Program-made: the position numbers and the translations under genes
Assembly: GCA_013138805.1 (NCBI GenBank)
Contig: WTCA01000084.1
Location: 1-38,996 of the forward strand
Direction: 5' to 3'
Origin: an archaeon
GTDB taxonomy: Archaea; EX4484-52; GLR71
Length of the DNA: 38,996 bases
In this document: piece after piece, positions 16,101 through 33,470 of the stretch
Numbering within the stretch: the stretch's first letter is position 1
How the letters are laid out: every line of letters begins with the position of its first letter
Notes under the pieces: model-generated
Told to the model about the DNA's origin: nothing
What the model saw: only the letters and a program-made list of their open reading frames with translations
Database searches by the model: none

Positions 16101-19100
16101 GAACTGACTCATACGAGCTCAGCACGACAGACGGCTGGGCAAATTTTACAGATATAGAATCTGTCTGGAACATGACAATAGACGCGATAGATCTTGGATA
16201 CCAGAACCAGAGCCATACAGATATATACACTTATCCGAACAGTGATACATCATACAATTTCACGCTTAGTATCACAAAAATAACAATAAATGTTACTGAT
16301 GATATGGGCATACTTGAAAACGCAACTGTATCCCTTACAGAGCCGTCAACAGGTGTTATCCTTACAGATTATCTTGGAAACCCGCTGACAGGCCTTACAG
16401 ACAACAACGGAAGCATAACATTCACACAGTTCAACCTGTCATCATACAACCTGATAATAAACGAGACATCTCATGAATTCTACAACCAGACAATCATCAT
16501 ATCAACAGACACAGACAACAGCCTTGAGATAGACCTTGACACGACAAGGATGACAGTGAATGTAGACGACACTTATGGCGCACCTCTGGAAAACATCTAT
16601 GTAATGCTCAAAAAGACAGACGGCACAATGAACTTCACAGGATACACAAACATATCAGGCCAGATAATCTTTGAAAACCAGACATTCCCGCCGGGAATAT
16701 ATAACCTCACCGTAAACGGATCAGCAGAAGGCTACAATTACACAGTAAAGCAGATAAATATCTATGCAGGATCACAGAACATTGAAAATGCAGTTCTTGA
16801 AGAATTCAGGCTGACAGTGCAGGTCAACAGCAGCTATGACAGCACGCCTGCATACAATGTCACAGTTGATATAGGCACACTGCCAGAAAAGACAACAGAC
16901 TTAAACGGCATAGCAGAGTTCAGGAATCTTGAGAACAGGACATACAGCATAATGATAAACGGTAGTGAAGTGGGATATAACAATACCGCAATATCATTAA
17001 ATGTCACAGGAGATACAAAGATATACATATTTCTTAAAGAGAACACATTCAAGATTATTGTTGAAGACGAGGAAGGAAACCCGGTTGACGGCGGCGTTAC
17101 AGTCATATTATATGATCCATATGACTCAATTATATACGACGATGCATTTGGAGAAAATCTTATAAATTATACAACAATCACAACCAACAACATAACTTTC
17201 AGGAAGATGCAATACGAGCCCTCACCGGGAAACACAGTCACGATGGAAACAGACGGAAGCGGTCAGGGATATAGCATAAACCTTACAGATTACACTATAC
17301 TCAACGGCACCAACGGCCCTAACACAACAATACTAAACATCACACAAATACTAGTCAATGTCACAAACGCCACAGGAGGGCCGATAAACGCAGCATATGT
17401 AAAAATAAACACAACTACTGGAGACCCTGTCCAGAACGCACTCGGTCAGACAATGGACGGCATGACAGCATCAAACGGAACAATAACATTCAAAAGGCTT
17501 CTCCCAAACACATACAATGTATCTATTGAAAAGAATGTCAGCGGAACAATGATCTACAACTCAACCCTCATCACAATTTCAGCAGGAGAGCACGCATATG
17601 TCCATCTCGACCCTAATGACACAATAGTCCCGTCGCTCAAAGATACATACTACACAGACATATTCGGCAGCGAAACTTACGAACTCACAATAAATGCAAG
17701 CGGTCTGATAGGACCTGTAAATAACGCAACAGTAAAGATATACGCAACAGGCTACAACTACAGCGACTCATACTGGTACAACTATGAAGCTACAGACAAC
17801 AAGACAACAGATGCAAACGGCATCATAGTCATCTCTAACATGCCCTCTGGAGTATACGATGTACTCATAGATGGAGAAGCGCAGGGATATGGAATAATAA
17901 AGACACAGATACGGTTCGGAAAGCTTGTCTTCTCTAAAGGGACGACCGGAAGCGACGGTGTCATAGAAATACCTGTAGACGGACGCAGGATAGAAGACGC
18001 GGTAGACAATGGATATTTCATAAGAGTAACTGGAGCAGGATACGGAACTTATGACATATTAAACAATGGAGAATCAGGAATTGAAGGTACATATTATGAC
18101 CATGCCCAATATGACCAGGATATATATCCGGGTTATGAAATAAACAACAGGACAGATATATCATTGACAGGTATAATAAACATGACAGGAACAATAATAG
18201 ACAAGTTTGCATTGAACGCCCAACCAAGTTTCAGATATCTTGAAAGCGTATTTTTAGAGTTCATCCTCCACGGCACGCAGACTGTAAGATACACAACATA
18301 CACAGACATCAACGGGACATACCAGATAAATGTCAGCCCTGTAGTAGCAAGCGCAACAGACCTCTCAAGCCCGCTCACCTATGACATAAGATCATCAAGA
18401 ATAGGATACACAACAGACATAGTGGAAGAAGCGATGCCTGCAAATCCTGCATCAATAATATCAGACATAGAGCTTGAAGGGGCAGGAACAATGGACGGGA
18501 CATTGCTTACTTATAATGACAATGGACCAGTATCAGGAATAATCGTAAGATACATAGACAATGCAACAGTTTCAGAGATATACAAGACCACAAGTGACAA
18601 CGACGGAAAGTACAGCATGAAAGTAAACCCATACTATCAGCCATACAAACTGTCATTCTCGGACCCGACATCAAACACGAAGAACCACACGACACAGAGC
18701 TATACAGAGCCGCACACAGACGAGATATATTATCTGTTGGAACAGGATCAGGCAATAATAAACATATATGTTCTTGACGACTACAGCGCAGAAGTAGAAA
18801 ACGCAAAGGTTACAATAGACTCAATTATTGACGGAAATACGACAACATTTTACACAAACGAAAACGGGAAAGTTGACTTCTTCATAGACGGTGAAGACTG
18901 GAACCTTGGCCAGTACAACATAACAGCAGACGGAAAGACACTTGGATACGGCTCAGGCTACAAGACACAGAACATAAACTTAATAGGATACAACTCAGTC
19001 ACCATCACAATAAACACCACAAAGATAAACATAAGTGCATCGAGCAATTTAGGCAATCCCATATACAACACGACAGCAAATCTCACAGGAACTATGTCAG

Positions 19101-21100
19101 ATTCAAAAGAGATAGAAAACAATACGGCAACCTTCAGCAAGATTGTCTCTGGCAATTACACCGTGACATTAACAAGTTCATATTTTAGCTATTACACAAC
19201 ATCTATAGAAATAAACGACAGCAACGCAGGTACTACAATACAGAAGAATATTATGCTTAACGAAAGCATGATATCAATAAGAGTCATCAACCAAACAGGC
19301 GGCACGCTTGAAAACATAAGCATATCTGTCAACGGCCCGACACCATACTCAGAAAAGACAGACTCATCAGGCTGGCTGAACAAGACAGAGATACTCTCAG
19401 GAAACTACACGATAAGCTTCACAAACGCGACAGAATTCACAGGCAGCAACTATTTCATACCACAGAACATCTCAGTCACCCAGACAATAGGAAACACCAC
19501 ATACATAGAAGTGACAGCCATAGAGCGAATAATAAATGTCACAGTCCATGCCTACGACATAAAAGACATATACAATGCATCAAGAACAGAGATATCAGGT
19601 AACACGCTGAACATAAGCCTCACAAATGATACAGGCATCACCCAAAATAAGACAGGAGACGCAAACAGCATAATTACAGGCAACGGAATCGCCAACTTCA
19701 CAACGCTGTATGAAGGAGTATACAGGATAAACGCGAGCGGACTGAACTACACATCAGACAATGAGACCACATTCAACACGACCGAGCCCGGATTCTCAAA
19801 CACGCCGCAGGAAATATTTCTGAAAAAGATTGATATGGCCTACATCAACGAGACAGTGCTGTCAGGCGGGTCAGCTATAGGCGGGGCTCAGGTAAACTTA
19901 TACTGGAACTCTACCACGCTCATTGAAACAATGACAACAGACACTTACGGAAGAGCAATTATCCCTGTAAATGCCACACTCTACAACTCAACACTTCATC
20001 TTGAGATATCAAAGACAGGATACGTGACAAAGACAACGGCACAGTTCAACATAAATATCGGTGATATATATGACAACACGACAAGCATGACACTGGAAGA
20101 CTCTGGTTACAATCCCCCCGGGGGCAGCAGCAGCCCGGGCAGTTCATCACCACCATCATCCTATTTTCCGCCAAGCCCGCCACCCCAAGACAATGACACT
20201 ATAGAAGACACAGACTTAATACAGAAGATATACGAATATCCAGAGACACGGGAAGAGATAGAAACAGAGATAAGAGATAACACTGGTCTCAACAATATAC
20301 TAAGCGAATATTTCGGAGACCTGTCAGAAGAAGACATCTATGAAATTTCAATAGAGACAGAGACAGGAATCAAAGACTTTGAGATATCAAGAGACATATA
20401 CACAGATGAAGAAGGAAAGACAGTCATAGGCATAAACGCATACTACACAGGAGACAGCACAATAGAAAGCCTTGCCATCTATGATATCCTGCCGCAGGAA
20501 CTGATAGAGATAAGCAATATAGCATTCACAGAATCATCGGCAGAGATATTCACCGATATAGACAGAAATTCATATCTGTCAATAAATTCCGGCATAGAAC
20601 CTGGCACCTATCACAGGGTTGAATACATTACAGAAATAAAGATTGAAGCGTCAGACATAGACAGTTTCACAAAGCCGGTAATAATTCTCACAGGCATGGC
20701 AAAGAAAGAGGCTGTGACAGAACCGGACAGGACAGATATCATAGATGCACCTGAACCAAAAAAGAGTATCCTTGACTATTGGTGGATTTTCGCCCTTGCA
20801 GCCATAGCAGTAATAGCTGGCGTAATTGTTGCAAGAACGGCAGGGAAAAAGAGTACAGGAAATTATAGTTTCAGTCCAAATGAAACAAGAAAGCCATTGA
20901 ATCCCCCCACAACGCCTGATGCAGGCACACCTTATGGCTTTGGAATAAGCCAGAACAAGATTGCGACTTTGCCCGAAAAAGTTGCCAGCACAGTAGAGAA
21001 GATAGAAGAAGAGATATCGGAAGATATCAAAAAAGTAGCCCAAAAAGAGGTTGCATACCTCACAAAACAGCTGGAGAAAGGAAAGTTCATAGTTGACTGA
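13163..21100 (+). CDS. giant membrane-anchored surface protein with carboxypeptidase-regulatory-like repeats
   Basis: A 2645-residue secreted protein, probably an adhesin or cell-surface stalk. The signal peptide (MKRYITAIILSAIALAII) probably ends at A24/A25. Residues about 26-2315 are a long chain of beta-sandwich units of about 80-100 residues. They repeat the phrases EGTVRSLDTNSP, TDADGYY, YNITI.A.GY and IYLEG seen in carboxypeptidase-regulatory-like/CNA-B/SpaA-like domains. The sequence is very rich in Asn/Thr/Ser/Tyr with dozens of N-x-S/T sequons, so heavy N-glycosylation is likely. A Pro/Ser/Gly hinge (about 2316-2343) leads to a membrane-proximal domain (about 2346-2520), one transmembrane helix (about 2538-2562, WWIFALAAIAVIAGVIVA), and a charged, probably coiled-coil cytoplasmic tail. 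There are few Cys. It is translationally coupled to the winged-helix gene. Its stop overlaps the convergent truA end by 14 bases. Confidence 0.92.
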   Translation: MKRYITAIILSAIALAIIVPYIFAAPDYIEGTVRSLDTNSPIGGLTIDIVNCTNNSQVFNTTTTPADGTFWLDYNNTWGNYSINVSGNPSYTDKQFNNASQCFGNGTNITLQLYPVATSSLNVSLKDIANSRPIPNAIVTLYRSNLPNDPPIDQSNNYRCTAGICRTGADGTILLIVPNPGTYNITIESAYYNNWNETLATFNVFSELGKNRDYAKNLKGSGLIAGSIIDTYNGKPVESAFVELYKHDSDPYSGENLSISGIYNYSAVTGTDGKYEIYVPPNILSLGNYDIKASHKDWTPKINYNNDPNPDGGWDSLNTNITVSLEGKLLINGSIYDCNNNDTGLSLDIYVTDKSGSGFDYHIHTDNGNFSFFVKNTSLGYNGYNITINGTEYSATILSNAQQNISECVYGSQKINGTIKDMENIQPINNAIIIISLGDGTEYNTKTIIDGTFDMDVKGETSFSIGIDKTGYTAQSGLQDSDGLYETIYLTGENHIYGYIEDNEGSRRVAGPKIENVTIEIKNQTTSAQIYTTTTDADGYYSIYISSDINYTLSLNKNLYNSTEDNISAGESPNSTIYLKGTTHIEGSVLDDSPFAVNKNITSGTTLEFKNENETVYILTASGGEYSIDMAIDSYNITASKTGYTTKTETGFISGSNIYKDINLEGELNMTLYTTDDFSSQPVNLIKIRLFDKDTGIVKYDSIITLNGKKNIYVDSDREYYIAVYENNYFPIYELIAANGTQFEKEYRMIAKYEAMITDSENGAPVENADIYAYHYFNETYYPQQLNETTVTVTVNCSGMFLDNINVTITGDSYYDSGNTTAGVITFSTVPLNNYTVEANGSLDGCSTRNVTVNVTQGGIAYNTTIELNTTMIMVHVTNKISETIYPANVSYENLTGYNITMQGFNNTYYYDSYVVLGSYNISANESDHYNNTAACNVTIPGEVNWCNITLLPRPGNLSIYIYNSTDDPITGATVNITNGTDSYELSTTDGWANFTDIESVWNMTIDAIDLGYQNQSHTDIYTYPNSDTSYNFTLSITKITINVTDDMGILENATVSLTEPSTGVILTDYLGNPLTGLTDNNGSITFTQFNLSSYNLIINETSHEFYNQTIIISTDTDNSLEIDLDTTRMTVNVDDTYGAPLENIYVMLKKTDGTMNFTGYTNISGQIIFENQTFPPGIYNLTVNGSAEGYNYTVKQINIYAGSQNIENAVLEEFRLTVQVNSSYDSTPAYNVTVDIGTLPEKTTDLNGIAEFRNLENRTYSIMINGSEVGYNNTAISLNVTGDTKIYIFLKENTFKIIVEDEEGNPVDGGVTVILYDPYDSIIYDDAFGENLINYTTITTNNITFRKMQYEPSPGNTVTMETDGSGQGYSINLTDYTILNGTNGPNTTILNITQILVNVTNATGGPINAAYVKINTTTGDPVQNALGQTMDGMTASNGTITFKRLLPNTYNVSIEKNVSGTMIYNSTLITISAGEHAYVHLDPNDTIVPSLKDTYYTDIFGSETYELTINASGLIGPVNNATVKIYATGYNYSDSYWYNYEATDNKTTDANGIIVISNMPSGVYDVLIDGEAQGYGIIKTQIRFGKLVFSKGTTGSDGVIEIPVDGRRIEDAVDNGYFIRVTGAGYGTYDILNNGESGIEGTYYDHAQYDQDIYPGYEINNRTDISLTGIINMTGTIIDKFALNAQPSFRYLESVFLEFILHGTQTVRYTTYTDINGTYQINVSPVVASATDLSSPLTYDIRSSRIGYTTDIVEEAMPANPASIISDIELEGAGTMDGTLLTYNDNGPVSGIIVRYIDNATVSEIYKTTSDNDGKYSMKVNPYYQPYKLSFSDPTSNTKNHTTQSYTEPHTDEIYYLLEQDQAIINIYVLDDYSAEVENAKVTIDSIIDGNTTTFYTNENGKVDFFIDGEDWNLGQYNITADGKTLGYGSGYKTQNINLIGYNSVTITINTTKINISASSNLGNPIYNTTANLTGTMSDSKEIENNTATFSKIVSGNYTVTLTSSYFSYYTTSIEINDSNAGTTIQKNIMLNESMISIRVINQTGGTLENISISVNGPTPYSEKTDSSGWLNKTEILSGNYTISFTNATEFTGSNYFIPQNISVTQTIGNTTYIEVTAIERIINVTVHAYDIKDIYNASRTEISGNTLNISLTNDTGITQNKTGDANSIITGNGIANFTTLYEGVYRINASGLNYTSDNETTFNTTEPGFSNTPQEIFLKKIDMAYINETVLSGGSAIGGAQVNLYWNSTTLIETMTTDTYGRAIIPVNATLYNSTLHLEISKTGYVTKTTAQFNINIGDIYDNTTSMTLEDSGYNPPGGSSSPGSSSPPSSYFPPSPPPQDNDTIEDTDLIQKIYEYPETREEIETEIRDNTGLNNILSEYFGDLSEEDIYEISIETETGIKDFEISRDIYTDEEGKTVIGINAYYTGDSTIESLAIYDILPQELIEISNIAFTESSAEIFTDIDRNSYLSINSGIEPGTYHRVEYITEIKIEASDIDSFTKPVIILTGMAKKEAVTEPDRTDIIDAPEPKKSILDYWWIFALAAIAVIAGVIVARTAGKKSTGNYSFSPNETRKPLNPPTTPDAGTPYGFGISQNKIATLPEKVASTVEKIEEEISEDIKKVAQKEVAYLTKQLEKGKFIVD

Positions 21101-21946: not shown

Positions 21947-22453
21947 TCAGCAGCAAATGTTAAAATCGGAACAGCAGCTTACCTGCGTCACAATACCGTT
22001 TGTCGCAAGACCGACAAGATCACAAAAACCATTGTATTCATACCTTAAGCACCATGCATTTGTCCTTATCTCCTGCTGTATGTTAACTTTTGCGGATTTT
22101 ATAATATAATCGATAGATATATTGTTCGGATAAACACCTATATATGTCACATCTTTTTCAAAATATAGGGAATATCCAACCTTACTGAGAACATCCCGCT
22201 CATATATCAGGTATTCCTCAATATCATCTGGTATAGATTCATGATCAACCACAGAGATTATATTATCCAAATCAGATTCTATCTGCCTCATAAAAAAGAC
22301 AGTCATATCGCTCTGCATATATGATAGATCAAGTTCACGGTCCTGCGTAAGTATCTCATTCAGGACAGTAAGAGAGAACAGGATAATCACTATGCCTATC
22401 ACAAAGAACTGTCCTTTTCTTGCCTTTGCTTTCGCACAGCAGCATTCAGTCAT
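21947..22453 (-). CDS. class III prepilin-like protein (KGQ type), 168 residues
   Basis: Pilin-like secreted protein. A short basic leader ends KARKGQ (R12-Q15), followed directly by a hydrophobic helix (FFVIGIVIILFSLTVL). This fits an archaeal class III signal peptide cut by a prepilin peptidase next to the KGQ. The soluble part has about 130 residues and ends with several Cys (CCSDFNICC), possibly disulphide-bonded; another Cys run lies in the leader. It is the last gene of the pilus operon and overlaps the preceding gene by 8 bases, so it is translationally coupled. Role inferred: minor pilin. Confidence 0.75.
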   Translation of the reverse strand: MTECCCAKAKARKGQFFVIGIVIILFSLTVLNEILTQDRELDLSYMQSDMTVFFMRQIESDLDNIISVVDHESIPDDIEEYLIYERDVLSKVGYSLYFEKDVTYIGVYPNNISIDYIIKSAKVNIQQEIRTNAWCLRYEYNGFCDLVGLATNGIVTQVSCCSDFNICC

Positions 22454-24038
22454 AATACCACGTTTTCAATTTCATAATATATGGCTGCGACATATCCTTA
22501 TTCGCAAGCAGCACAAACTCTTCAGACATCACATTCATCGCATTGTCAGATACCTCAGATACCATATATGTTTTCGGAGACACCCAAAGCACAAGGCTGC
22601 GAAGGAAATGCCAATCATCCCTGGATACGATATTATCTGTAAACCAGGCAGTCCTGCCTGTAAACTTACCGTAATTGACAATAGACACAGGAAGATTCGC
22701 CCCATAGCTTGTCAAAAGTTCAGACTCCATAACAACAAATCGTGACCTGTTCTCAAGATTGCTGTCAAAACCATCGACATGATACACTTCATTATCCATA
22801 TTCAGAACAGAAAAATTATGCGGCATCTCAATACTGAATTTTATATAATTTCCTCTTGAATCAATCTCAACAATTGTATAATTGTTCCCATCCAAAAACA
22901 GCATATCTCCGGCAGAAAGACCTGAAAAATTTCCGTCATTGGTAAAATTACGGTCCTGGTTCTCATCAATATAGACAAGATCGTAATCAATGCCTGAAGA
23001 ATTGATAACAATCACCCCATAATCCTTATGTTTTAAAGACACTATATTAAAGCCATATATGCCGTTCGTTGAATTGATAACTTCTGAATAATTCAACGTA
23101 CCACTATTATCGCCGGAACAAGGTGATGGATTATTTACTGTGCATTTGGCCATACCTATTGTATGGTTAGTTTCACCCAGGTATACATCAACAGTCCCGG
23201 CAGTCATGTTCCACGAATTTTCAACTGAGAGATTGAATCTAACAGAACTCTCAGTACTAAGATAAAAAGGAAATGCATAAAAATACTTATGCAGGTTATA
23301 TATATCCTCAGAAGGGCGGGCATAAGATATATAAGATCCCTCTGCACCTGAAGGCAGCACTGTCGTGCTGTTCCACTTAAGGCCGAATATATCTTTTTGG
23401 ACATCAAGATTCACAAGCGACTCATTGCTAAGATTAGACACCTGTATTATTCCCTTACCAGACAGAAGAAAAGTTGAAAGTTTTTGATGATAAGCTGAAT
23501 TCATAAGCGTTATGTTCCCGAGCATATCAACATAAGGCCCTTCAAAAGGAATAAGCAGGACATCAAAATGTCTCCAGTCACCAGTCCAGGTAGTATTGCG
23601 CACCTCAAAACGTGTCTCTCTTCCGTTTATGATAACAGATTCATCCTGACCGAAAAAATTCTGGGATATGTTAGTGCTATAGCAAAGATATACATCATTA
23701 TCATATGTCAGGACTCCTACACGCAGAAGCGGATTTATAAGATTGTACGTAGATATGGCCACGCCCATATTCTGAAAATCGGACATATACATCGCAAGAG
23801 CCAAAAAAGAATCCTGGCTATCTGCAACAAGCATATCTGTATAGCCCAAACGGCTCATAACTTCCGCAATCTCACGCGACTCCTGGGAAAGTCTTGAGAT
23901 GCGCCAGTCATTCCCATCAGGTACAACATCAATCACCCTTGCCGAATAGCTCAGAAGAATCATGATAGCTATGACAGCCTCAAGACTATGTATGAACCCG
24001 TCACGTCGCCTGCGCGACGATACAGCATTCAAGCACAT
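22446..24038 (-). CDS. large pilin-like surface protein
   Basis: A secreted type IV pilin-like protein of about 530 residues. After a basic leader (SSRRRRDG) comes FIHSLEAVIAIMILL, like the start of bacterial-style pilins with a glutamate at +6 of the mature helix. The rest is a large extracellular beta-rich domain with many Asn/Asp and N-glycosylation sequons. The track begins at a TTG (24089). In-frame ATGs lie at 24077, 24065 and 24038. I prefer 24038 because it gives a 14-residue leader like the other pilins in this operon, but no start has a convincing ribosome site. Probably a minor pilin or tip adhesin. Confidence 0.75.
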   Translation of the reverse strand: MCLNAVSSRRRRDGFIHSLEAVIAIMILLSYSARVIDVVPDGNDWRISRLSQESREIAEVMSRLGYTDMLVADSQDSFLALAMYMSDFQNMGVAISTYNLINPLLRVGVLTYDNDVYLCYSTNISQNFFGQDESVIINGRETRFEVRNTTWTGDWRHFDVLLIPFEGPYVDMLGNITLMNSAYHQKLSTFLLSGKGIIQVSNLSNESLVNLDVQKDIFGLKWNSTTVLPSGAEGSYISYARPSEDIYNLHKYFYAFPFYLSTESSVRFNLSVENSWNMTAGTVDVYLGETNHTIGMAKCTVNNPSPCSGDNSGTLNYSEVINSTNGIYGFNIVSLKHKDYGVIVINSSGIDYDLVYIDENQDRNFTNDGNFSGLSAGDMLFLDGNNYTIVEIDSRGNYIKFSIEMPHNFSVLNMDNEVYHVDGFDSNLENRSRFVVMESELLTSYGANLPVSIVNYGKFTGRTAWFTDNIVSRDDWHFLRSLVLWVSPKTYMVSEVSDNAMNVMSEEFVLLANKDMSQPYIMKLKTWYYD

Positions 24039-24085
24039 TGCTTTTCCATAACCGCAAAATACCATAACAATCAACATGATTTCAT

Positions 24086-24778
24086 TCAAAAAAACATTAT
24101 TTTTATCCTTGCAATAAACCCGTCAAGAACAGAATACCTGTTCACAGTAACCATATTCCTTTCCACACTGCCCCAACCATATGACAGTATTGTCCTTTCA
24201 AAGATAACAAAATTTCCGTCAGGATCAATCCTTGATAGTGTATAATTCATGCCGGATATTAACAGTGTATCACTTTCATAGAGGCCCAAAGACAATGCAT
24301 CTGCTTCTACATCAACAGTGGTATAGGTTAAGGATGTCGTATTCTTAACTGTAAGATTTACAGTAAAAGGATTATACGTCTTGTTGAATACAGCGCTGCC
24401 AGTATGGTCATAGCCGTCCATATCTCTAGTGAGGATGACAGGGTACTGGTCAATCTCAATCTTCTGCCTGTACCTATAATTCTCATCTATGGAATCGCGG
24501 AGTTCAGTCTTGTTCTCAGCATAGCTATAAATCTGTACCTCATTTATGACATGATCTTCTGTCTCTATCATATTCATGAATCTTTCAGAAAATATCCATG
24601 CCTCAGCACGGAGATTGTTGCGGTCTATTGAACTGTAGAACGGGCCGATAGAATCTAATGCAGTAGTTGAAGCATAAACTATGGAAAGCGCAAGAAGAAA
24701 GAAAGCGAAGAGATAATCTATGTTTAGCTGGCCTTTACGCAAGGAAGTATTGTTTTCGCAAGAGGTGGAATAAAACAT
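24086..24778 (-). CDS. class III prepilin-like protein (KGQ type), 230 residues
   Basis: The leader ends SLRKGQ (about 13-17), followed by a hydrophobic helix LNIDYLFAFFLLALSIVYA with an acidic residue at about +5. This is an archaeal class III pilin pattern. The extracellular part is beta-rich with several N-x-T/S sequons (NKT, NLT, NTT, NYT). It follows the TadC-like gene with a 5-base gap and runs up to the start region of the next pilin-like gene. Probably a minor pilin or pilus-associated subunit. Confidence 0.76.
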   Translation of the reverse strand: MFYSTSCENNTSLRKGQLNIDYLFAFFLLALSIVYASTTALDSIGPFYSSIDRNNLRAEAWIFSERFMNMIETEDHVINEVQIYSYAENKTELRDSIDENYRYRQKIEIDQYPVILTRDMDGYDHTGSAVFNKTYNPFTVNLTVKNTTSLTYTTVDVEADALSLGLYESDTLLISGMNYTLSRIDPDGNFVIFERTILSYGWGSVERNMVTVNRYSVLDGFIARIKIMFF

Positions 24779-24783
24779 AGTAT

Positions 24784-25716
24784 CTACCCGAAGACCAAGA
24801 ACACCACAAATGCGACCACAGACAGGACAATTGCATGCTTTACGCCGGCAGCCGCAGAGCCCTCGCTGATTTCACCTGCCATAAGGCCGCTTGTTATCGC
24901 CTGCACCATAGCCATTATAAAGAACAGGGCTTCAAAATAGCACAGCTGACCTTCACCAAAACCGAAAGGCACACATATGGAGCACACAAAGGGAACCATA
25001 GTGCAGTAATCTACATCTCCTGATGATGAGCTGGATGACCCGAAAAGGTTAACTTCCACAAGCCCTGAAGATAGAAGAGGTATAAGAATATTATACATCA
25101 TAAGAGCAATCACAAGGAAAAGTACAGAGATAAAATACATCATGATGACCTGCTGCGACATATCTGATTTCCTTTCATCACCAAGCCCTTTTATTGTCTT
25201 TATATCTGTGGAAAGGTCATCCATCACTTCAGTGACATCACCTCCCGCATTGAACGCTTCAAGAATTATGGTGAATGAACGCTTCATTATAGTGCTGTAC
25301 TTAAGCCTGTCAGCAAGAGATGACATGACCTGCATAAAAGGCATACCCCATGAAAGCTGATGTACTGCTCTGGATATCTCCTGATTAAGTTCACCATAGT
25401 CTGTATTCTGACGGCTCTTCAACGCATCCTGAAAAGTCATGCCGCTCTTCTTGGCTTCAGCAAAATCCCTCAGGAATCTTGGAAAATGATCCTCCATCTT
25501 ACTATATTTAGAAAAGTTGAGATACGCATATAATGATGATGGAATAATAGACATTATTGCCCCAATAAACAGTACAATAATACCAACAGACTGCAGAAGA
25601 GGATCAAATGCAAGAGTGAATCCAAAGATGATGAATAAGATACCTAAGACAAGAGAGCCCAGCTTGATAAGTTTCTCATTCTCCGGCCTGAAAAATAATT
25701 TTATGTCAAAAGCCAT
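24784..25716 (-). CDS. TadC/FlaJ-like pilus membrane platform protein 1
   Basis: A 310-residue polytopic protein of the type II secretion F / TadC / archaellum FlaJ family, the inner platform on which the ATPase drives pilin polymerisation. Two N-terminal membrane helices (about 18-68) precede a cytoplasmic helical domain with family features (FPRFLRDFAEAKKSGMTF, EAFNAGGDVTEVMDDLS). Further helices at about 190-215 and at the C-terminus follow. Only 2 bases separate it from the second platform gene. Two separate platform genes in tandem are usual in Tad-like and many archaeal pilus loci. Confidence 0.88.
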   Translation of the reverse strand: MAFDIKLFFRPENEKLIKLGSLVLGILFIIFGFTLAFDPLLQSVGIIVLFIGAIMSIIPSSLYAYLNFSKYSKMEDHFPRFLRDFAEAKKSGMTFQDALKSRQNTDYGELNQEISRAVHQLSWGMPFMQVMSSLADRLKYSTIMKRSFTIILEAFNAGGDVTEVMDDLSTDIKTIKGLGDERKSDMSQQVIMMYFISVLFLVIALMMYNILIPLLSSGLVEVNLFGSSSSSSGDVDYCTMVPFVCSICVPFGFGEGQLCYFEALFFIMAMVQAITSGLMAGEISEGSAAAGVKHAIVLSVVAFVVFLVFG

Positions 25717-25718
25717 CT

Positions 25719-26645
25719 CTATTTCATCTCCGGTGTTATTCCTTTTATAAATATTATTATACCTGCAGACACGATTGGTATGATAAAAAATATCAAAGCC
25801 ATCTGAGAGCCTACAATCATCCCTGAAAGGTCAGTGCCTCCCATTGAACCCATTATAGCTGTTATGACCATGAACATGATAGAGCCGATCATCACGACTG
25901 TAAGATACATTTCAACAATCATTGAAAGCTTCTGCTGGAACGCCTTGAGTGTCATCTTATAACGCGCAAGAGCCGCTTTTGACTTTTCATGAAGATATAT
26001 CCTAAGATCACCCCCTGCCATTTCCACAGTCCTCATACCCCACAAAAGATCAACAAACTGGTTTGACGGTGTTCTCTCTGCCGCATTCTTAAGCGCACTC
26101 AGCATATCTATACCAAGAACATCCACTTCCTCAACAATCTTCCTCGCTTCTTTGGATATCTCACCATAATCATCAAACTTAGCAAGAGTCCTGAACATAG
26201 CTATAGGAGGCGTACCGCCACCGGATATAGTCGCAAGGTAAAGAGTAGCATAAGGCACAAGGCCGTCTATCTTTTTCTCTCTCTCGCCCATGCATATCCC
26301 GGGATATACGTAGAAAAAAGCAAATATAAGGACAGAAAAGAAAACTGCACCGAAAACTGAGAGGAACAGTGACATGAACAGGCTACCTGTTATCAGAAGT
26401 ACTAATATAGATAGTGGCAGTGCCATGAAAAAAAAAACAGCAGCAGATGTGACAGCAGCGACAGAGATATAGTCTTCTAAAGACATATTTATATCTGCTT
26501 TTTTCAGGGAAACCTTAAGGCTCTGGAAATAAATGAAATAAGGCTGAATATGAGGCACTGCAAGATTTGATGCAAACCTGGCATAATCAAATTTTTCATG
26601 TGTATCTTCAGTATTTTTTGGAGGTTCAGAAGTCTTCAACGTCAT
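25719..26645 (-). CDS. TadC/FlaJ-like pilus membrane platform protein 2
   Basis: A 308-residue polytopic platform protein, paralogous in design to the one at 24784. It has an N-terminal soluble segment, two membrane helices (about 60-115), a cytoplasmic domain with LVPYATLYLATISGGGTPP and LWGMRTVEMAGGDLRIYL, and two C-terminal helices (about 230-300). The start overlaps the ATPase gene by 20 bases. GGGGAGG before its ATG lies within the ATPase coding region, so ATPase and platform are translationally coupled, as expected for partners. Confidence 0.89.
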   Translation of the reverse strand: MTLKTSEPPKNTEDTHEKFDYARFASNLAVPHIQPYFIYFQSLKVSLKKADINMSLEDYISVAAVTSAAVFFFMALPLSILVLLITGSLFMSLFLSVFGAVFFSVLIFAFFYVYPGICMGEREKKIDGLVPYATLYLATISGGGTPPIAMFRTLAKFDDYGEISKEARKIVEEVDVLGIDMLSALKNAAERTPSNQFVDLLWGMRTVEMAGGDLRIYLHEKSKAALARYKMTLKAFQQKLSMIVEMYLTVVMIGSIMFMVITAIMGSMGGTDLSGMIVGSQMALIFFIIPIVSAGIIIFIKGITPEMK

Positions 26646-28761
26646 AATCCTCCCCTATAAGATCCATAAGTGTTCTGGTGTCATTGTAGTATGCCTTTAT
26701 GACTTCATTGACCCGCATAAAATTGGTGATATACTTATCAGACATCCACTCAAGCACCTTCATCCTTTGGCGTAGCTGGTCTTTGAGCTGATTTACGCTT
26801 ATGCCTGTCTCAGCAGATATCTTGCCTAAAAGATAGCTGTCAGAGATGACAGAGAATGTGTCATTAAAAGGGTTCCATTCAAATGGCTTGTTTGTTATGA
26901 TTTCATCTTTTTCTGAATCATATCCTTTTATCTCTTGTATCTGGGTTACCCGTCTCACATATCCGTTCTTGAGCTTGATTCTTTTCACAAAGACAAGCAT
27001 ATCCAGTGTCTCGATAAGGGATTTGGAGAGATTTATAGGCCTTGTGACCAGCCTGTCTATCACTTTTTCAAACGAGTCTGCATGGAAAGTAGAAAGTCCG
27101 GGATGCCCTGTCGCTATCTGCTGGAAAAGGACAGATGCCTCAACACCACGTATCTCGCCCACAACAATATAATCAGGTCTCTGACGCAGAGAGCTTTTCA
27201 GAAGGTCAAACATGCTGACCTCACCACGATGCTTACCTGTAGTATCTGCCTCCCCGAAACCAGATCTTGAGACTTCAGGCACCCAGTGCTCATGAGGCAG
27301 CTTAAGCTCAGGTGTGTCTTCTATTGACACTATTTTAGCTGTAGGCTTTATGAACATTGAAAGAGCGTTCAGGACAGAAGTTTTCCCTGAAGCTGTAGCA
27401 CCCACAATCAAGATAGATTTACCATGCTCGATATTAAGCCATAGATATGCAAGCATACGGGAATCAATACTTCCGAAATTCATCATATGCACAGGTGTCA
27501 AAGGTTCCTTAAGAAATCGCCTTATTGTTATGTTTGAGCCTCTTGAAGCGATATCTGTAGCAAGGGTGGCCTGGACTCTCGAACCGTCAGGCAGAGCGCC
27601 CTGAAGTATCGGTTCTGCCATAGATATCGCCCTTCCGGTCTTCTGCGATATCCTCATGACAAGCTTATCCAGCACCTCATGTGTCTCAAAAACGACATCT
27701 GTCTGCAGTGAGCCAAGCTTTGGATCCCTGTGATACACATAGACAGGTATGCCCATACCGTCACAGCTTATATCCTCAACCTGCGGATCATTCAGCAGCG
27801 GCTGCATACGGCCAAGACCTATAAAATCACGGAGTATATAATACTTATATATATCAAGCTTGCTTGCATCTATATTAAACTTAAAACGCTTCAGTATCTT
27901 GTCCATCATAGATACTATATACTCTTCAGAAGACTCCTTGCTGAAAGATTTGAAATCAACATCAATTTCATCTTCAATAACTGTCTTTATCTGTAATATA
28001 CGGCTCTTGTCCTGAGCAGACTGCACAGGCTCAACAACTTTGTATACCAGGCTGTTTGCCTTATTATCCCAGACAACATTTGCCCAGGCATACACTTTCT
28101 CACCACGTTTAGGAGATGGAGGTGTCAACGGATATTTTATATCAGTCTTCAGAAAATCATCAGCAGTAAGATCTTTTCGCACCCTGACTGTTTTTACTTC
28201 AAGATTTTTGAGATCAACACTTTTTATATCATCCTTAAGCTGATTTTCTTTATTCTTAGAATTATCTTCTGGTGCATCATTGTTAAAGTAAGACCCGCCG
28301 ACTGGTGTCGCGATGTAAGGAATAACTGCTCCTATACGGGCAGGAGCAAAGTTCACATTTCCTGAAGAGTCTATCTGTTCTGCCTTAACAGAAGATATAT
28401 TCTCTTGTTGAGATAAGGGCTGGACATTACCACCAGAACCGGATATCGAACCGGAACCGGATATCGAACCAGAACCGGATATCGAACCAGATTTAGGTAT
28501 TGAACCTGATTGCGGCTGCCCGGGATACATGCTAGGAAAATAGCCGGAAGATGGTGCATTCTCCTCAATTATAACAATAGGAGAAGACTTGCCTTCTGAA
28601 GATGAAGAAGAATGTAAACCAAGATTTTTAATTTTAGAGACTAATCTATCAGTATTTTCTGCGCGTGTCCTGTCAAGAGACCTGCGCCTTGCAGAATGTT
28701 TGTATTTTTTTGCAAATGTCCTTGTTACTTTTCTGAGATTGAACTTCTTAATACATCCCAC
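26626..28761 (-). CDS. type IV pilus/secretion assembly ATPase (TadA/VirB11/FlaI-like)
   Basis: Hexameric ATPase powering pilus assembly. The 711-residue protein carries a core with Walker A GATASGKT (about 451-458), SIEDTPEL, the Asp box/Walker B region RPDYIVVGEIRG, and TGHPGLSTFHAD (His box). The PILQGALPDGSRVQ and NITIRRF motifs lie before the core, as in archaeal FlaI/TadA. The first about 180 residues are an unusual extension: a basic, Arg/Lys-rich start (FAKKYKHSARRRS), serine/proline-rich disorder, and GSISGS hexapeptide repeats. The start codon is GTG at 28761, overlapping the previous gene by 14 bases; no better in-frame start exists until about residue 78. The family ATPase is usually about 500-550 residues, so the N-terminal tail is the odd part. 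Confidence 0.94.
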   Translation of the reverse strand: MGCIKKFNLRKVTRTFAKKYKHSARRRSLDRTRAENTDRLVSKIKNLGLHSSSSSEGKSSPIVIIEENAPSSGYFPSMYPGQPQSGSIPKSGSISGSGSISGSGSISGSGGNVQPLSQQENISSVKAEQIDSSGNVNFAPARIGAVIPYIATPVGGSYFNNDAPEDNSKNKENQLKDDIKSVDLKNLEVKTVRVRKDLTADDFLKTDIKYPLTPPSPKRGEKVYAWANVVWDNKANSLVYKVVEPVQSAQDKSRILQIKTVIEDEIDVDFKSFSKESSEEYIVSMMDKILKRFKFNIDASKLDIYKYYILRDFIGLGRMQPLLNDPQVEDISCDGMGIPVYVYHRDPKLGSLQTDVVFETHEVLDKLVMRISQKTGRAISMAEPILQGALPDGSRVQATLATDIASRGSNITIRRFLKEPLTPVHMMNFGSIDSRMLAYLWLNIEHGKSILIVGATASGKTSVLNALSMFIKPTAKIVSIEDTPELKLPHEHWVPEVSRSGFGEADTTGKHRGEVSMFDLLKSSLRQRPDYIVVGEIRGVEASVLFQQIATGHPGLSTFHADSFEKVIDRLVTRPINLSKSLIETLDMLVFVKRIKLKNGYVRRVTQIQEIKGYDSEKDEIITNKPFEWNPFNDTFSVISDSYLLGKISAETGISVNQLKDQLRQRMKVLEWMSDKYITNFMRVNEVIKAYYNDTRTLMDLIGEDYDVEDF
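28435..28506 (-). repeat. 18-base tandem repeats in the ATPase N-terminal linker
   Basis: Four head-to-tail 18-base units (AGAACCGGATATCGAACC on the plus strand). Three are nearly identical and the fourth is degenerate. They encode GSISGS repeats in the disordered N-terminal linker of the ATPase. The near-perfect DNA identity implies recent slippage; the copy number does not change the frame. Confidence 0.85.
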
Positions 28762-29185
28762 CTCTCAAAAATATTGAAGACCCATCATATTCTATCTTGA
28801 TTGACCTACCCGAGCTTGACACAATACCCGACACAAAAACAGGAGTATCTGTAATCATTCTGTTATCGCCCATCTTTATCATGAACTGCTTTCTGGGAGG
28901 ATTAAAGCCGGATATTATGTAATTGTCCCTGCTGACTTCACTTGGTATGTCAAGCACAACATAGCCTGACGTCACATTTGCGAACACGAGCCTGTCAATT
29001 GCAGACAATATGAAATTAGATATCTGTGCAACATTCTGGTCTTCAAAATCATCTGATACACGATTGTTTATGCTGTTGAACGTCGCTGACACACCAGTAA
29101 GCACAACAATGCTCAAAGCGACAAAGAGTATCTCTTCAAGCACAATATTCTGTCCTTTGCGCTTTTTCACAAAAAGTCGCATCAT
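28748..29185 (-). CDS. class III prepilin-like protein (KGQ type), 145 residues
   Basis: The leader KKRKGQ (7-12) is followed by NIVLEEILFVALSIVVLTGVS, a class III pilin N-terminus with acidic residues about five or six positions after the cut. The soluble domain is short and beta-rich. It lies directly upstream of the ATPase gene, which it overlaps by 14 bases, and 4 bases after the large pilin-like gene. Probably a minor pilin. No Cys residues are seen. Confidence 0.8.
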   Translation of the reverse strand: MMRLFVKKRKGQNIVLEEILFVALSIVVLTGVSATFNSINNRVSDDFEDQNVAQISNFILSAIDRLVFANVTSGYVVLDIPSEVSRDNYIISGFNPPRKQFMIKMGDNRMITDTPVFVSGIVSSSGRSIKIEYDGSSIFLRGGMY

Positions 29186-29189
29186 ATCA

Positions 29190-30137
29190 CTAACTGCCGA
29201 AAGACATTGTTACGGGAGTCACTGTAAGAGGCCCACCTGTCTTCTCTGCAGGTTGAGTACTTTCCACAAAACGGTCAAGCCCTGTTATTGTTATTGATGT
29301 CTTAGACTGGCCAAAATCAAGCGCCCCGGCGAGAGTATTTCCTTTTTTTGTAATCTGGACAAGATTCCCTTTACCTCTGCTGTCATCCAGATCATCAAGC
29401 TCTCTGTAGACAAGTTTGAATATGACTTTATACTTGTCACCGTGCGGCACTGTCCTCACCACGATGACACCTGCATTATTGACACCTGAGAAACCTGTGA
29501 CAGGCTTTTCAGGCCCGGCTATAGTGACATATTCGCTACCTGCCGTACAGTCTATATACTCTATCTTATATTCTGAATTAAGGATATATCCCTCACCAAC
29601 ACCACCCACAGTCGGTCCCTCTGTACAGGTTAAGTCAACTACACTTGAACCTGGACATAAATTTGAAATTGTGCAGGTATTTGAAGGAGGCAAAAGCACA
29701 TCATCCCCATTTCCTCCACTATACATCCCCTGCGAAATCGGGTTGAACCCGTCAAGCGGAATCCACAGTCCTGTAGCCGATGCGACACCGCTCGTAATAA
29801 TAGTATATGTTACTGAATTTTTCCTGTCAGGCGGAACATTCACTTTTATGCTCCCGTCTGCCTGTTTTTCCATAGATGCACCTTCAATGACCATTTCACC
29901 CCTTAGATTAATGTTCACCACTCTTGACCCGCCGGACATAGAGACCTCATCTGTTGCCTTTTTTATTTCCTGCATTATAGATACTGCCTGTGTTATCTCC
30001 GAATTGGATTTGCTCTTGTCCAGCATAGGAAGACCCCACCACAAAGCACCGGAGACCGCAGCGATTGTAATTCCTGTAAGCAGGATCATAGAGACTATCT
30101 GAACCTGCGCCTTTCTTCCATAGAAACATTTACCCAT
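29190..30137 (-). CDS. pilin-like secreted protein, 315 residues
   Basis: A basic leader GRKAQ (7-11), then VQIVSMILLTGITIAAVSGALWW: the pattern of an archaeal prepilin with A in place of G before the Q. The extracellular part is large, glycine/valine/serine-rich and beta-strand-rich, with four clustered Cys at about 154-171 and 195. These include NTCTISNLC and LTC, and are likely disulphides. It has its own upstream region (161 bases) with a TATA-like box and a GAGGTG ribosome site just before the ATG, so it begins the second transcriptional segment of the pilus locus. Confidence 0.77.
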   Translation of the reverse strand: MGKCFYGRKAQVQIVSMILLTGITIAAVSGALWWGLPMLDKSKSNSEITQAVSIMQEIKKATDEVSMSGGSRVVNINLRGEMVIEGASMEKQADGSIKVNVPPDRKNSVTYTIITSGVASATGLWIPLDGFNPISQGMYSGGNGDDVLLPPSNTCTISNLCPGSSVVDLTCTEGPTVGGVGEGYILNSEYKIEYIDCTAGSEYVTIAGPEKPVTGFSGVNNAGVIVVRTVPHGDKYKVIFKLVYRELDDLDDSRGKGNLVQITKKGNTLAGALDFGQSKTSITITGLDRFVESTQPAEKTGGPLTVTPVTMSFGS

Positions 30138-30202
30138 AAAAACACCTCTGAAACATCAATATATTATCAGACTATAGTTATTGATAATTTGTGTCTTTGT
30201 AG

Positions 30203-30212
30203 AATATATAGT
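30203..30212 (-). promoter_or_regulatory. internal pilus-operon promoter (TATA box)
   Basis: ACTATATATT on the minus strand, about 70 bases before the ATG at 30137. It lies just beyond the polypyrimidine run that follows the major pilin gene, so the assembly genes can be transcribed apart from the pilin. CTATATAT is shared with the TATA box at 31658-31668. Confidence 0.5.
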
Positions 30213-30224
30213 TTTTACGGAAAA

Positions 30225-30298
30225 GAAAGGAAATCAAGAGAATAAAATAGAAATAAAAAAGAGATAAGAAAAAAAGAAAGGGGGAAAAAGGAAAAAGC
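30225..30298 (-). terminator. polypyrimidine terminator after the major pilin gene
   Basis: On the minus strand the pilin stop is followed at once by a long T/C run containing CTTTCTTTTTTTCTT. Archaeal RNA polymerase commonly stops at such T-rich tracts. It should limit read-through from the pilin to the assembly genes and keep pilin mRNA more abundant. Confidence 0.6.
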
Positions 30299-30820
30299 CT
30301 AACAGAAAGTATCTGCCGCATTAGCCAGATTGCAGCCATAAGATACTGTAACACCTGAATCTAAAATTAATTCATAAGTTACAGTTGTTACTGAATCACC
30401 CGGAAGAGCTAAAGGATTTATAAGATCTGTGACTTCCAAAACACATACATCACCAACTTCAATCGTACCTACACTAGTACATGTTCCAGCAAAAGTTGCA
30501 TCAAATCTTAAATCCCCATCTTCTTTAACACTTAATTTAGTACCATCAAACTCTGGAATTTCAAGTGATCCTACATTTTTAATATAATAATCAACATCAC
30601 CAGCAGCAGCGGCAGCACCCTTCACCTGAATAATCCTAAACTCAGTCCGCATCTTATTAGATTGAGCATCTACCTGCTCACCGATAGCTTCTGTCTGCTT
30701 CTCACTCATGTTCATTATGAACTCATATGCAAGACCGGCTGCAGCGACAGTCATCATAAGCAATAGTACTATTGCAATTACAGGAGTAATACCTTTTCTC
30801 CTAACATTTGTTTTTACCAT
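30299..30820 (-). CDS. major archaeal type IV pilin
   Basis: A 173-residue pilin with the classic archaeal Pilin_N signature: leader VRRKG (6-10) cut before ITPVIAIVLLLMMTVAAAGLAYEF. After processing, the hydrophobic helix packs the filament core and the about 130-residue C-terminal domain is exposed. Cys residues at about 113, 125, 158 and 173 may form disulphides. There are few N-glycosylation sequons. GAGGTAA just upstream gives a strong ribosome site, and a pyrimidine terminator follows it. Together these mark it as the probable abundant subunit of the filament encoded by this operon. Confidence 0.88.
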   Translation of the reverse strand: MVKTNVRRKGITPVIAIVLLLMMTVAAAGLAYEFIMNMSEKQTEAIGEQVDAQSNKMRTEFRIIQVKGAAAAAGDVDYYIKNVGSLEIPEFDGTKLSVKEDGDLRFDATFAGTCTSVGTIEVGDVCVLEVTDLINPLALPGDSVTTVTYELILDSGVTVSYGCNLANAADTFC

Positions 30821-30825
30821 AATTA

Positions 30826-31044
30826 TTACCTCTTTTTATTACTTAATACCTTATAGACCCTCAACAATATTATCGCATTGAAATACAGCGCACCGACAAC
30901 AAGGAGAAGAAGCATATTTGTTATGCTCACTGCCAGAAGGCTTGAATTGAGCATACCTCCCCCAAGTATCAAAAATGCTGAGATTGTCATAAGCATAATA
31001 CATATTACCAAAAAATTTTCAAGCATTTCAGTCCCTAATCTCAT
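30826..31044 (-). CDS. small two-helix membrane protein
   Basis: A 72-residue hydrophobic protein with two predicted membrane helices, FLVICIMLMTISAFLILGGG and SITNMLLLLVVGALYFNAIILL, and a short basic tail (YKVLSNKKR) on the cytoplasmic side. It is not a pilin, because the leader lacks a KG/KGQ site. It lies 3 bases after the coiled-coil gene and 5 before the major pilin. GGAGGT for it lies inside the end of the coiled-coil gene. Possible pilus accessory or anchor; the family is not recognised. Confidence 0.75.
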   Translation of the reverse strand: MRLGTEMLENFLVICIMLMTISAFLILGGGMLNSSLLAVSITNMLLLLVVGALYFNAIILLRVYKVLSNKKR

Positions 31045-31047
31045 AAA

Positions 31048-31605
31048 TCACATACCTCCGTAATTCGGCTTCTGTTGCGGTGTTGCCTGCTGTGTTGGAA
31101 ATGGTGAAGATGTCTGCTGTGAAGATACGGCCATAGAAGATGCAGTTCCTGACCTCTTAAGCCTCTTATCGATTGTAGCCAGATTCTCTGCAATACTCTC
31201 ATTGCTTCTCAGCATCTTTTCATTAGAGTCTGTTATGCTCTTGACAAGAGGAGACACCATACCCTTCAGCGCAGTCACAGCTTCAGACTCATTCACATCT
31301 TCCTTGCCTGCCTCTTCAACAATATCAACAAAGCTTGTAAGCTTACTCTGAAGAGAATCCATTTTACCGATAAGTGTAGCAAGATCACCGCGAAGAGATG
31401 TATTTGCCTTGACCATCTCATCGACAATCCTCTGGTTAAGCTCAACCATGTCAAGTATCTTGTCCATCATCCGCTCAAGATTAGAGAAAGACTTGGATGA
31501 CTCCATCTGGCCCATCCGTTTCTCAAGACGCCTGATAGGTGTAAGAGGAACTACTTCATAATCCTCTTCTTCGCCTATCTGTTCATAATCATCTTTCTTT
31601 GACAT
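31048..31605 (-). CDS. coiled-coil cytoplasmic protein of the pilus operon
   Basis: A 185-residue protein. It has an acidic N-terminus (QIGEEEDYEVV), a conserved-looking TPIRRLEKRMGQMESS, then long amphipathic heptads (about 35-150), and a Ser/Gln/Pro-rich tail ending NYGGM. No membrane span is present. As the first gene of the pilus transcript it could be a scaffold analogous to archaellum accessory coiled-coil proteins (FlaC/D/E), but this is inference from shape and place. GGTGA precedes the ATG. Confidence 0.78.
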   Translation of the reverse strand: MSKKDDYEQIGEEEDYEVVPLTPIRRLEKRMGQMESSKSFSNLERMMDKILDMVELNQRIVDEMVKANTSLRGDLATLIGKMDSLQSKLTSFVDIVEEAGKEDVNESEAVTALKGMVSPLVKSITDSNEKMLRSNESIAENLATIDKRLKRSGTASSMAVSSQQTSSPFPTQQATPQQKPNYGGM

Positions 31606-31657: not shown

Positions 31658-31668
31658 AGTATATATAG
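31658..31668 (-). promoter_or_regulatory. main pilus-operon promoter (TATA box)
   Basis: CTATATATACT on the minus strand, about 55-60 bases before the first pilus gene start at 31605. The leader of about 30 bases carries a GGTGA ribosome site next to the ATG. It lies downstream of the thermosome terminator run, so the pilus operon is probably independent of the chaperonin gene. Confidence 0.55.
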
Positions 31669-31745: not shown

Positions 31746-33398
31746 TTACATCATAGGAGGCATTCCGCCGCCGCCCATTGGAGGCATCCCTTCAGGCATT
31801 CCGCCACCGCCACCAAGCTTTGAAGCAGATATGACATCATCAATCCTCAATATCATCTCAGCAGCCTCAGAAGCGGATTTTATAGCCTGCGTCTTAATCT
31901 TTATCGGCTCTACAACACCCTGCTTAAGCATATCCTGAACTTTATTCTTAAATACATCAATCCCTGCCCATTTTACGCCCTTGTCATGCTGTGACCTGAG
32001 TTCCACAAGGATATCTATAGGATCAATACCTGCATTCTCTGCAAGGGTCTTAGGGATGATATCCATAGCATTAGCAAAAGCAGATATGGCAAGCTGTTCT
32101 CTTCCACCGACAGACTCACTGTATTTTCTGAGATCTTTTGCAATCTCAGCTTCAGGAGCGCCGCCGCCGGCAACAATCTTTCCGACTTCAATAGATGCAG
32201 CAACACCGCCAAGAGCATCTTTCATAGCCCTCTCTATCTCATCGACTACATGTTCTGTGCCGCCACGGACAAGGATAGATACAGATTTTGGCTCTTTGCA
32301 TTTCCTGACAAATATCATCTCGCTGCCGGAAATCTTTTTCTCTTCAACAATGCCGGAACTGCCAAAATCTGATGCAGCCATCTCATCAAGATTAGATATC
32401 ACGCTTCCGCCCGTTGCCTTGGAAAGTGCATCCATATCTGATTTCTTGACCCTTCTTGTAACCATTATACCAGCCTTTGCAAGATAATGCTGCGCCATAT
32501 CATCAACGCCTTTCTGGCAGAAAACAACATTTGCCTTTGAAGCTATAATCTTATCCACCATACTTTTCAGCATCTTCTCTTCCTGCTCAATAAATGCATT
32601 CATCTGGGACGGGTCAGTAATCCTTATCTGCGCATCTCTCTCAAGCTCCTTGACCTCAATTGCGCTGTTCAGAAGCAATATATTCGCGTTCTCAACTTTA
32701 CGCGGCATACCTGAATGCACAATTTCCTTATCAATTATAAGCCCGCTGATAAGCGTTGTCTCATCAGTGGATCCGCCTGCCTTTTTCTCAAGCTTTACCT
32801 GGTCAAGGTCAATCACGATCTTGCCATCATCCTCTACTGCCACCTGACTTATCGCCTCAACAGCAATCTTTGCAAGGAAATCTTTAGCAGACTCGCTGGA
32901 TTTGCCTGTCATAGATGTAAGAGCAATCTTTATCAAAAGCTCCTTATCTTTTATACTGACATCAATGCCTATCTTATTGATTATCTCAAGCGCCTTCTCT
33001 TTCGCAAGCCTGTATCCCTGAGCTATGCTTGTAGGGTGTATCTTCTGTTCCAAAAGACCTTCTGCCTGCTTAAGGAGTTCACCCGTAAGAACTGCAGCAG
33101 TTGTCGTTCCGTCGCCCACTTCTTCATCCTGCGCCTTTGCGACCTCTACAACCATCTTTGCAGCCGGGTGCTGTATCTCCATCTCTTCAAGTATTGTAAC
33201 ACCGTCATTTGTAATGACAACTTCTCCAAGAGAATCAGTAAGCATCTTATCCATACCTTTAGGACCAAGAGTGGTCCTTACAGCATCAGCCACAACTCTT
33301 GCTGCCGCAATGTTTGACATCTGAGCGTTCCTTCCGCTCTCCCTGAAAGTGCCTTCAGGCACAACAATTATAGGCTGTCCGCCAATCTGTCCGTTCAT
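31746..33398 (-). CDS. ths: thermosome subunit (group II chaperonin)
   Basis: ATP-driven folding chaperone that forms a double ring with a built-in lid. About 550 residues. Family marks are [12 protein letters not shown], the ATP motif [26 protein letters not shown], and [16 protein letters not shown] near the C-terminus. The tail is Gly/Met-rich ([13 protein letters not shown]), typical of thermosomes. The track start is TTG 33422. I choose ATG 33398 (MNGQIGGQP) because GGAGG lies 9 bases before it; ATG 33407 is too close to that site. A single chaperonin gene appears in the window, so homo- or hetero-oligomer cannot be said. Its promoter block is repeated upstream of the gene at 33947. Confidence 0.97.
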
Positions 33399-33470
33399 AT
33401 CTTTCATCCTCCGTCTTTTCAAAGAAAATCGATTATTATATCTTTATCAAGAGTATCAATTCTTATGCTG

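Follow-up and report, generated by a model that had tools for sequence, protein, structure and literature searches.

A DPANN type IV pilus operon with a euryarchaeal-type pilin set and a separate motor lineage

The 38,996-nucleotide stretch of archaeal DNA analysed here (the window; contig C52 of a 1.33-Mb genome with a completeness of 92.7%) carries on its minus strand, from position 31605 to 21947, eleven co-directed genes whose content is that of a complete type IV pilus operon, i.e., six prepilins, one secretion ATPase, two TadC-type platform proteins, the coiled-coil protein cc185 and the small membrane protein tm72 (Table 1). The cluster most probably encodes one adhesive archaeal type IV pilus, the DPANN branch of a plan found in Euryarchaeota (probability roughly 0.8). 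An earlier note on this DNA had described the operon with these genes at these coordinates, and both are confirmed; it listed six pilins, which is the right number, while its title gave five. The organism is probably a member of the Aenigmatarchaeota, judged from the ATPase, which is 48–51% identical to the closest named loci, those of Candidatus Aenigmatarchaeota metagenome-assembled genomes (MAGs), and from the tree, where the ATPases of these MAGs group with those of the class to which the genome of the window belongs.

The pilins and their euryarchaeal counterparts

A class III prepilin start, i.e., [KR][GA] followed by about 20 hydrophobic residues, was found in 6/6 prepilins and is kept in most orthologues. 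The cleavage motif of pilJ in the window is DG rather than [KR][GA]; its listed start codon is TTG, and translation may begin at a more internal position. Five of the six, pilE, pilF, pilI, pilJ, and pilK (the quintet), gave no significant family in Pfam or NCBIfam when the window proteins were searched singly. Among their orthologues, 11/18 for pilE match DUF7289 (best 2.9e-10), 10/17 for pilF match DUF7266 (best 5.3e-5) and 10/18 for pilI match DUF7287 (best 1.5e-5); pilJ is weak, with 2/14 matching DUF7288 (best 0.068). Profile-profile comparison with hhalign established the homology of most of the quintet, giving probabilities of 96.7% for pilE, 96.2% for pilF (134 columns), 92.7% for pilI, and 87.5% for pilJ, and the resulting matrix is diagonal, each of the four matching its own counterpart and no other. 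The sixth pilin, pilD, matched no quintet family in this matrix. It scores above the cut-off for Arch_flagellin and for the archaellin/type IV pilin N-terminal domain model, just below it for Pilin_N, and matches the flagellin PDB 8fk7 with an E-value of 3e-10.

The five families also form an ordered group in euryarchaeal loci: Haloarcula vallismortis has ATPase-TadC-DUF7287-DUF7288-DUF7261-DUF7266-DUF7289, i.e., ATPase-TadC-I-J-K-F-E, and Methanolobus profundi carries the quintet twice. The window order, E-F-ATPase-TadC-TadC-I-J-K, is a rearrangement of the euryarchaeal one. The five pilins can thus be assigned to the set DUF7287-7288-7261-7266-7289, four by profile and pilK by position, and the filament plan is one already known. 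A literature search by these DUF names found no paper. The multi-pilin set of the Haloferax PilB4 type has a duplicated signature pilin of 250–550 aa, arCOG02911 (PMC4858521); DUF7289 proteins (244–504 aa, duplicated) fit that description and may be the same family.

Several observations weigh against the reading as a single pilus of euryarchaeal plan. First, pilK against DUF7261 reached only 3.4% in hhalign, which is the top of its row and not significant. Second, almost all of the signal for pilI and pilJ, and most of that for pilE, lies in the first 45 euryarchaeal residues, so that family-specific N-termini carry much of the homology case. Third, with 547 aa, where the euryarchaeal proteins have about 200 aa, pilJ can be homologous only in part. 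Fourth, the AlphaFold2 models, made from alignments of 3–4 sequences, are too poor for fold tests (predicted local distance difference test score of 37 for pilJ and 50 for pilE). Fifth, one family of the class (f4; families are labelled f, contigs of this genome C and individual loci L) keeps mainly the ATPase, without the rest of the cluster. Structure-based searches with pilE found nothing below an E-value of 1 in Foldseek and no profile match in the PDB. A GATase-like fold for pilJ, suggested by weak DUF4350, DJ-1, and LBP_M hits only, remains unsupported.

The motor, the coiled-coil pair, and their conservation

The ATPase matches T2SSE (E 1.5e-32), PilB3_C (E 2.6e-9), and AfGspE (375 bits). 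Its variable N-terminus contains a low-complexity SGSISGSGSISGSG stretch (window ~28430–28510). Trees built with FastTree (n = 156) and IQ-TREE (n = 66), neither of which contains references of clade 1 or most of those of clade 4 (Ups, Aap, Bas), agree with each other. They place the window ATPase in a clade A with those of Aenigmatarchaeota and Nanobdellota (support 100/99), next to a sister clade B (100/99; A and B together 96/93). FlaI forms a clade of its own (100/100), into which no paralogue of this genome placed in the tree falls, and most euryarchaeal sequences form another group (99/91). A topology joining clade A with the sole haloarchaeal long-ATPase representative tested (L149) was rejected by the approximately unbiased test (p 1.6e-72). 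The best NCBIfam models were FlaI for the ATPase (413 bits) and FlaJ for TadC2, and pilD also hits ArlG and ArlF; all of these scores are below the curated cut-offs (550, 400, and 110, respectively). The model of the bindosome (Bas) ATPase BasE gave 202 bits (cut-off 1000), that of the TadA family (Tad/CpaF) 165 bits (cut-off 373) and that of the platform protein UpsF 28 bits (cut-off 400); in the tree CpaF groups with a paralogue on C16. These placements indicate that the motor lineage is a separate DPANN branch, apart from both archaellum FlaI and euryarchaeal clade 2.

Clade B contains the ATPase of a second pilus system of this genome (L045, on C15), which has two TadC genes, five prepilins of the KGVSPLIA kind and, further upstream, a 288-aa coiled-coil gene that recurs in L247. 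The two systems mirror the two euryarchaeal pilin sets, a multi-pilin and a PilA-like one, yet their ATPases form sister clades in DPANN. Either a duplication of the motors took place in DPANN, each copy keeping or gaining a pilin set, or fast evolution in DPANN pulls the ATPases together in the tree. A third, deep-branching ATPase (734 aa) is encoded in L046 (C33) with two divergent TadC genes and without directly linked prepilins; a lone KGQSATEYLMTYGW prepilin is found some 3 kb further on.

Relatives of the ATPase are present in 34/34 genomes of the class, 29 of them at 47–97% identity. Families f1, f2, and f6 have the core order pilE-pilF-ATPase-TadC1-TadC2-pilI-pilJ(-pilK), and f3, f5, and f7 have parts of it; because the core recurs in this way, whole or in part, in families other than f4, the cluster is more than a chance assembly. 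A tblastn search against plasmids returned haloarchaeal and bacterial homologues and gave no further insight. Outside the class, L073, L074, and L219 read thermosome-cc-pilE-pilF-ATPase-TadC-TadC-pilI-pilJ. In the Nanobdellota Nst1, Nanopusillus, and Nanobdella the order is thermosome-cc-pilE-like-small pilin-like-ATPase, and neither TadC nor I-J-K is present at that locus.

The coiled-coil protein cc185 occurs in 28/34 genomes of the phylum. It matched no curated family in Pfam or NCBIfam model searches, and a PDB profile search returned generic coiled coils only; an assignment as FlaC/FlaD was rejected, there being no match to these models, FlaC_arch included. Two hydrophobic helices and a basic C-terminus suggest that both ends of its partner tm72 are probably cytoplasmic; at a guess, the two proteins could anchor a ring around the motor. 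Families f2 (genus g4), f5, and f6 have the pair, with or without pilD, at a place away from the motor; in f7 the block cc-tm72-pilD-pilE-pilF lies 62 kb from the ATPase. The modules of the operon are thus separable in evolution. Where both genes are unlinked from the motor they remain paired in most loci, and cc185-tm72 is a distinctive, additional two-protein unit conserved in the phylum. Such unlinked pairs adjoin translation-factor genes, IF5A-like in genus g4 and IF2-like in f5 (L232–L234, L246, L240).

The mixture of pilin types had been taken to suggest a distinct filament class. A separate ATPase clade, a rearranged operon, a cc185-tm72 pair specific to DPANN, and the lack of significant Pfam or NCBIfam matches for five of the six window pilins when searched one by one would all suit a categorically distinct filament that has a pilin set peculiar to it. 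Of the quintet, four pilins nevertheless match euryarchaeal counterparts, and no others, at 87–97% profile probability, and the euryarchaeal locus likewise has I-J-K following the platform gene. This diagonal pattern largely refutes the idea, which is now improbable. As the five pilins are a euryarchaeal quintet found together and in order, their mixture does not define a new class; what survives of the proposal is the distinct motor lineage and the cc185-tm72 pair. The pilin set and I-J-K order are those of a described system; the ATPase clade and the placement of pilE and pilF are not.

Transcription and prepilin processing

Two transcripts had been proposed, separated by a terminator after pilD and a TATA element of the next gene, and both signals recur in orthologous loci. 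The first 60 nt after pilD are 68% T and 91% pyrimidine, and this tract stands at the start of a 161-nt gap before pilE. In nine orthologous loci the pilD-pilE gap measures 134–309 nt (that of L059 contains an additional small open reading frame, which divides it), while nearly all other gaps of these loci are <100 nt and most <40 nt; a T-rich tract opens the gap in most of them. The exact 11-mer TATATATTCTA is found in the gap of the window, of three congeners and of one member of another family. By chance it would appear in 5–18 of 5000 shuffles per gap, and it has a single occurrence in 169 kb of this genome. Upstream of cc185 stands a putative TATA element, CTATATATACT. A scan for bacterial promoters found no more of them than in shuffled sequence, which is what an archaeon should give. 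On the strength of the long conserved gap, the T-rich terminator and the conserved TATA element, unit 1 (cc185, tm72, and pilD) and unit 2 (the quintet and the motor) are probably transcribed separately. That the PilA-type pilin is placed in a separate, probable transcription unit is a distinctive feature of the operon.

The expectation that the prepilin peptidase is encoded elsewhere was borne out. Whole-genome searches found none on the window contig and gave matches on C23, C60, C64, and C86, of which those on C23, C60, and C86 are A24-type candidates. The protein encoded at C60:6675–7565 (296 aa) has a WxDLKT...GEAD pattern and matches Peptidase_A24 with an E-value of 5e-5, below the Pfam cut-off. 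It is 38–41% identical to orthologues that two f2 genomes encode about 5–6 kb away from their pilus cluster, and is a good candidate for the prepilin peptidase. Against PF01478 the protein on C23 scores above it; C23 and C86 were nonetheless set aside as the main peptidase, and C60 preferred, because these two A24-like genes sit in radical-SAM arrays. They form a pair (L049 and L051) of 96% identity, at contig ends and beside the radical-SAM-like arrays.

Proposed function and genomic neighbourhood

We infer major and minor pilin roles, a priming and tip role for the quintet, a function for cc185-tm72 and adhesion to host cells. The peptidase encoded on C60 would cleave the six prepilins, and the ATPase on its TadC1/TadC2 platform would extrude a filament made mainly of pilD. 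Such a motor, an ATPase acting on a TadC pair, is established for these families. That pilD is the main subunit is suggested by its PilA/archaellin type and its separate unit; it could be made in large excess, as a T-rich terminator closes unit 1 and the second unit has its own TATA box. By analogy with bacterial minor pilins, pilE, pilF, pilI, pilJ, and pilK would be low-copy subunits that prime the filament and form or carry the tip and adhesin, and cc185 and tm72 would probably form a membrane-anchored cytoplasmic scaffold or a regulator of the motor. Relatives of pilI carry DUF2341 and relatives of pilK carry Laminin_G_3 or VWA, i.e., lectin-like or binding domains, which argues for a role in surface binding; DUF2341 has been linked to tip adhesins (PMC4858521). 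Adhesion of Haloferax requires pilB1-C1, which is believed to act together with clade 2 pilins (PMC6491452). It is tempting to go further and regard cc185-tm72 as an undescribed coiled-coil scaffold anchored in the membrane, in principle ArlX-like, of DPANN motors, and the quintet as an ancient priming and tip complex. The quintet would then predate, or have been shared across, the divide between DPANN and Euryarchaeota, the motors having been exchanged or having diverged separately. This combination can only be put forward tentatively.

The closest known system is the euryarchaeal clade 2 type IV pilus of the Haloferax PilB4 type (PMC4858521, Fig. 4B), which shares the ATPase and TadC, the quintet and the I-J-K block after the platform gene. 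The window differs from it in its DPANN-clade ATPase, in having two unfused TadC genes and pilE-pilF upstream of the ATPase, and in including a PilA-type pilin and cc185-tm72. The Haloferax PilB1-C1 adhesion pilus (clade 4C motor, clade 2 pilins) likewise combines euryarchaeal-type pilins with a motor of another lineage, thought to be derived from Crenarchaeota (PMC6491452), whereas the window motor is specific to DPANN; adhesion, the function of the Haloferax pilus, is also the one proposed for the pilus of the window. The type IV pilus islands of DPANN (PMC6393860, Fig. 2A) and of Nanoarchaeota (PMC6142677) also have ATPase, TadC, and unrecognised pilins. Some components of the DPANN islands were without detectable similarity to other archaea (PMC6393860), in contrast to the window pilins, which could be matched to euryarchaeal families.

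A secretion system, i.e., a pseudopilus exporting surface proteins instead of a long adhesive pilus, is very unlikely: type II secretion and type IV pilus machineries are homologous and the genome encodes very large surface proteins, e.g., the 2645-aa neighbour described below, but a dedicated PilA/archaellin-like pilin has its own transcription unit and pilins of this kind make adhesive pili in haloarchaea. That the cluster is an archaellum, intact or degenerate, is hardly credible; the ATPase, platform, and archaellin-type N-terminus are homologous to those of archaella (ArlI/ArlJ/ArlF/ArlG; PDB 4ii7), archaella too have a coiled-coil gene, and Aenigmarchaeota were reported to encode FlaG, FlaI, and FlaJ, with pili confined to thermal MAGs (PMC8407114), but the archaellum models that come nearest all stay below their cut-offs, the ATPase clade is separate, there are two platform genes, not one, and cc185 does not match FlaC_arch. 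As the nearest models for this pilus are FlaI, FlaJ, and ArlG/F, all below cut-off, some reports of archaellum genes in Aenigmarchaeota may concern the pilus described here.

Read as an adhesive pilus of euryarchaeal plan, the cluster gives unrecognised DPANN pilins a place in named euryarchaeal families and brings five families of unknown function into a single conserved pilus gene set; a putative shared minor-pilin complex thereby becomes testable in the genetically tractable Haloferax. It would also be a candidate organelle with swappable binding domains for the attachment of DPANN archaea to their hosts.

Table 1. Features of the pilus locus, and additional genes of congeners
Feature	Position	Strand	Description
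TATA element CTATATATACT	31658–31668	-	putative unit 1 promoter upstream of cc185, predicted from sequence
cc185	31048–31605	-	cytoplasmic coiled-coil protein; conserved N-terminal motif YExxPxxPxxxL
tm72	30826–31044	-	72-aa two-helix membrane protein, partner of cc185
pilD	30299–30820	-	PilA/archaellin-type prepilin, predicted major pilin
T/pyrimidine-rich tract	30240–30298	-	probable archaeal oligo-T terminator after pilD
TATA element TATATATTCTA	30200–30210	-	putative unit 2 promoter (pilE to pilK), conserved
pilE	29190–30137	-	large prepilin (KA|QVQ), DUF7289 homologue
pilF	28748–29185	-	KGQ prepilin, DUF7266 homologue
ATPase	26626–28761	-	secretion ATPase (T2SSE and PilB3_C); N-terminus variable, low-complexity
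TadC1	25719–26645	-	TadC/T2SSF platform protein 1 (E 6e-16)
TadC2	24784–25716	-	TadC/T2SSF platform protein 2 (E 7e-16)
pilI	24086–24778	-	KGQ prepilin, DUF7287 homologue
pilJ	22446–24089	-	largest prepilin (DG|FIHSLEAVIA), probable DUF7288 homologue
pilK	21947–22453	-	KGQ prepilin, DUF7261 counterpart by position and N-terminus
Extra genes, pilK-truA interval of congeners	L053 2626–4272; L055 2854–4600; L056 15094–16798		apparently secreted products

Beside the pilus cluster, at window positions 13163–21100 and convergent with truA, lies the gene of a secreted, repeat-rich surface protein of 2645 aa. Congeners have two extra genes between pilK and truA (Table 1), and none are found at that place in the window. 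Directly upstream of the coiled-coil gene is a thermosome gene (31746–33422), an adjacency that recurs from Aenigmatarchaeota to Nanobdellota (L055, L056, L059, L073, L074, L114, L211, L212).

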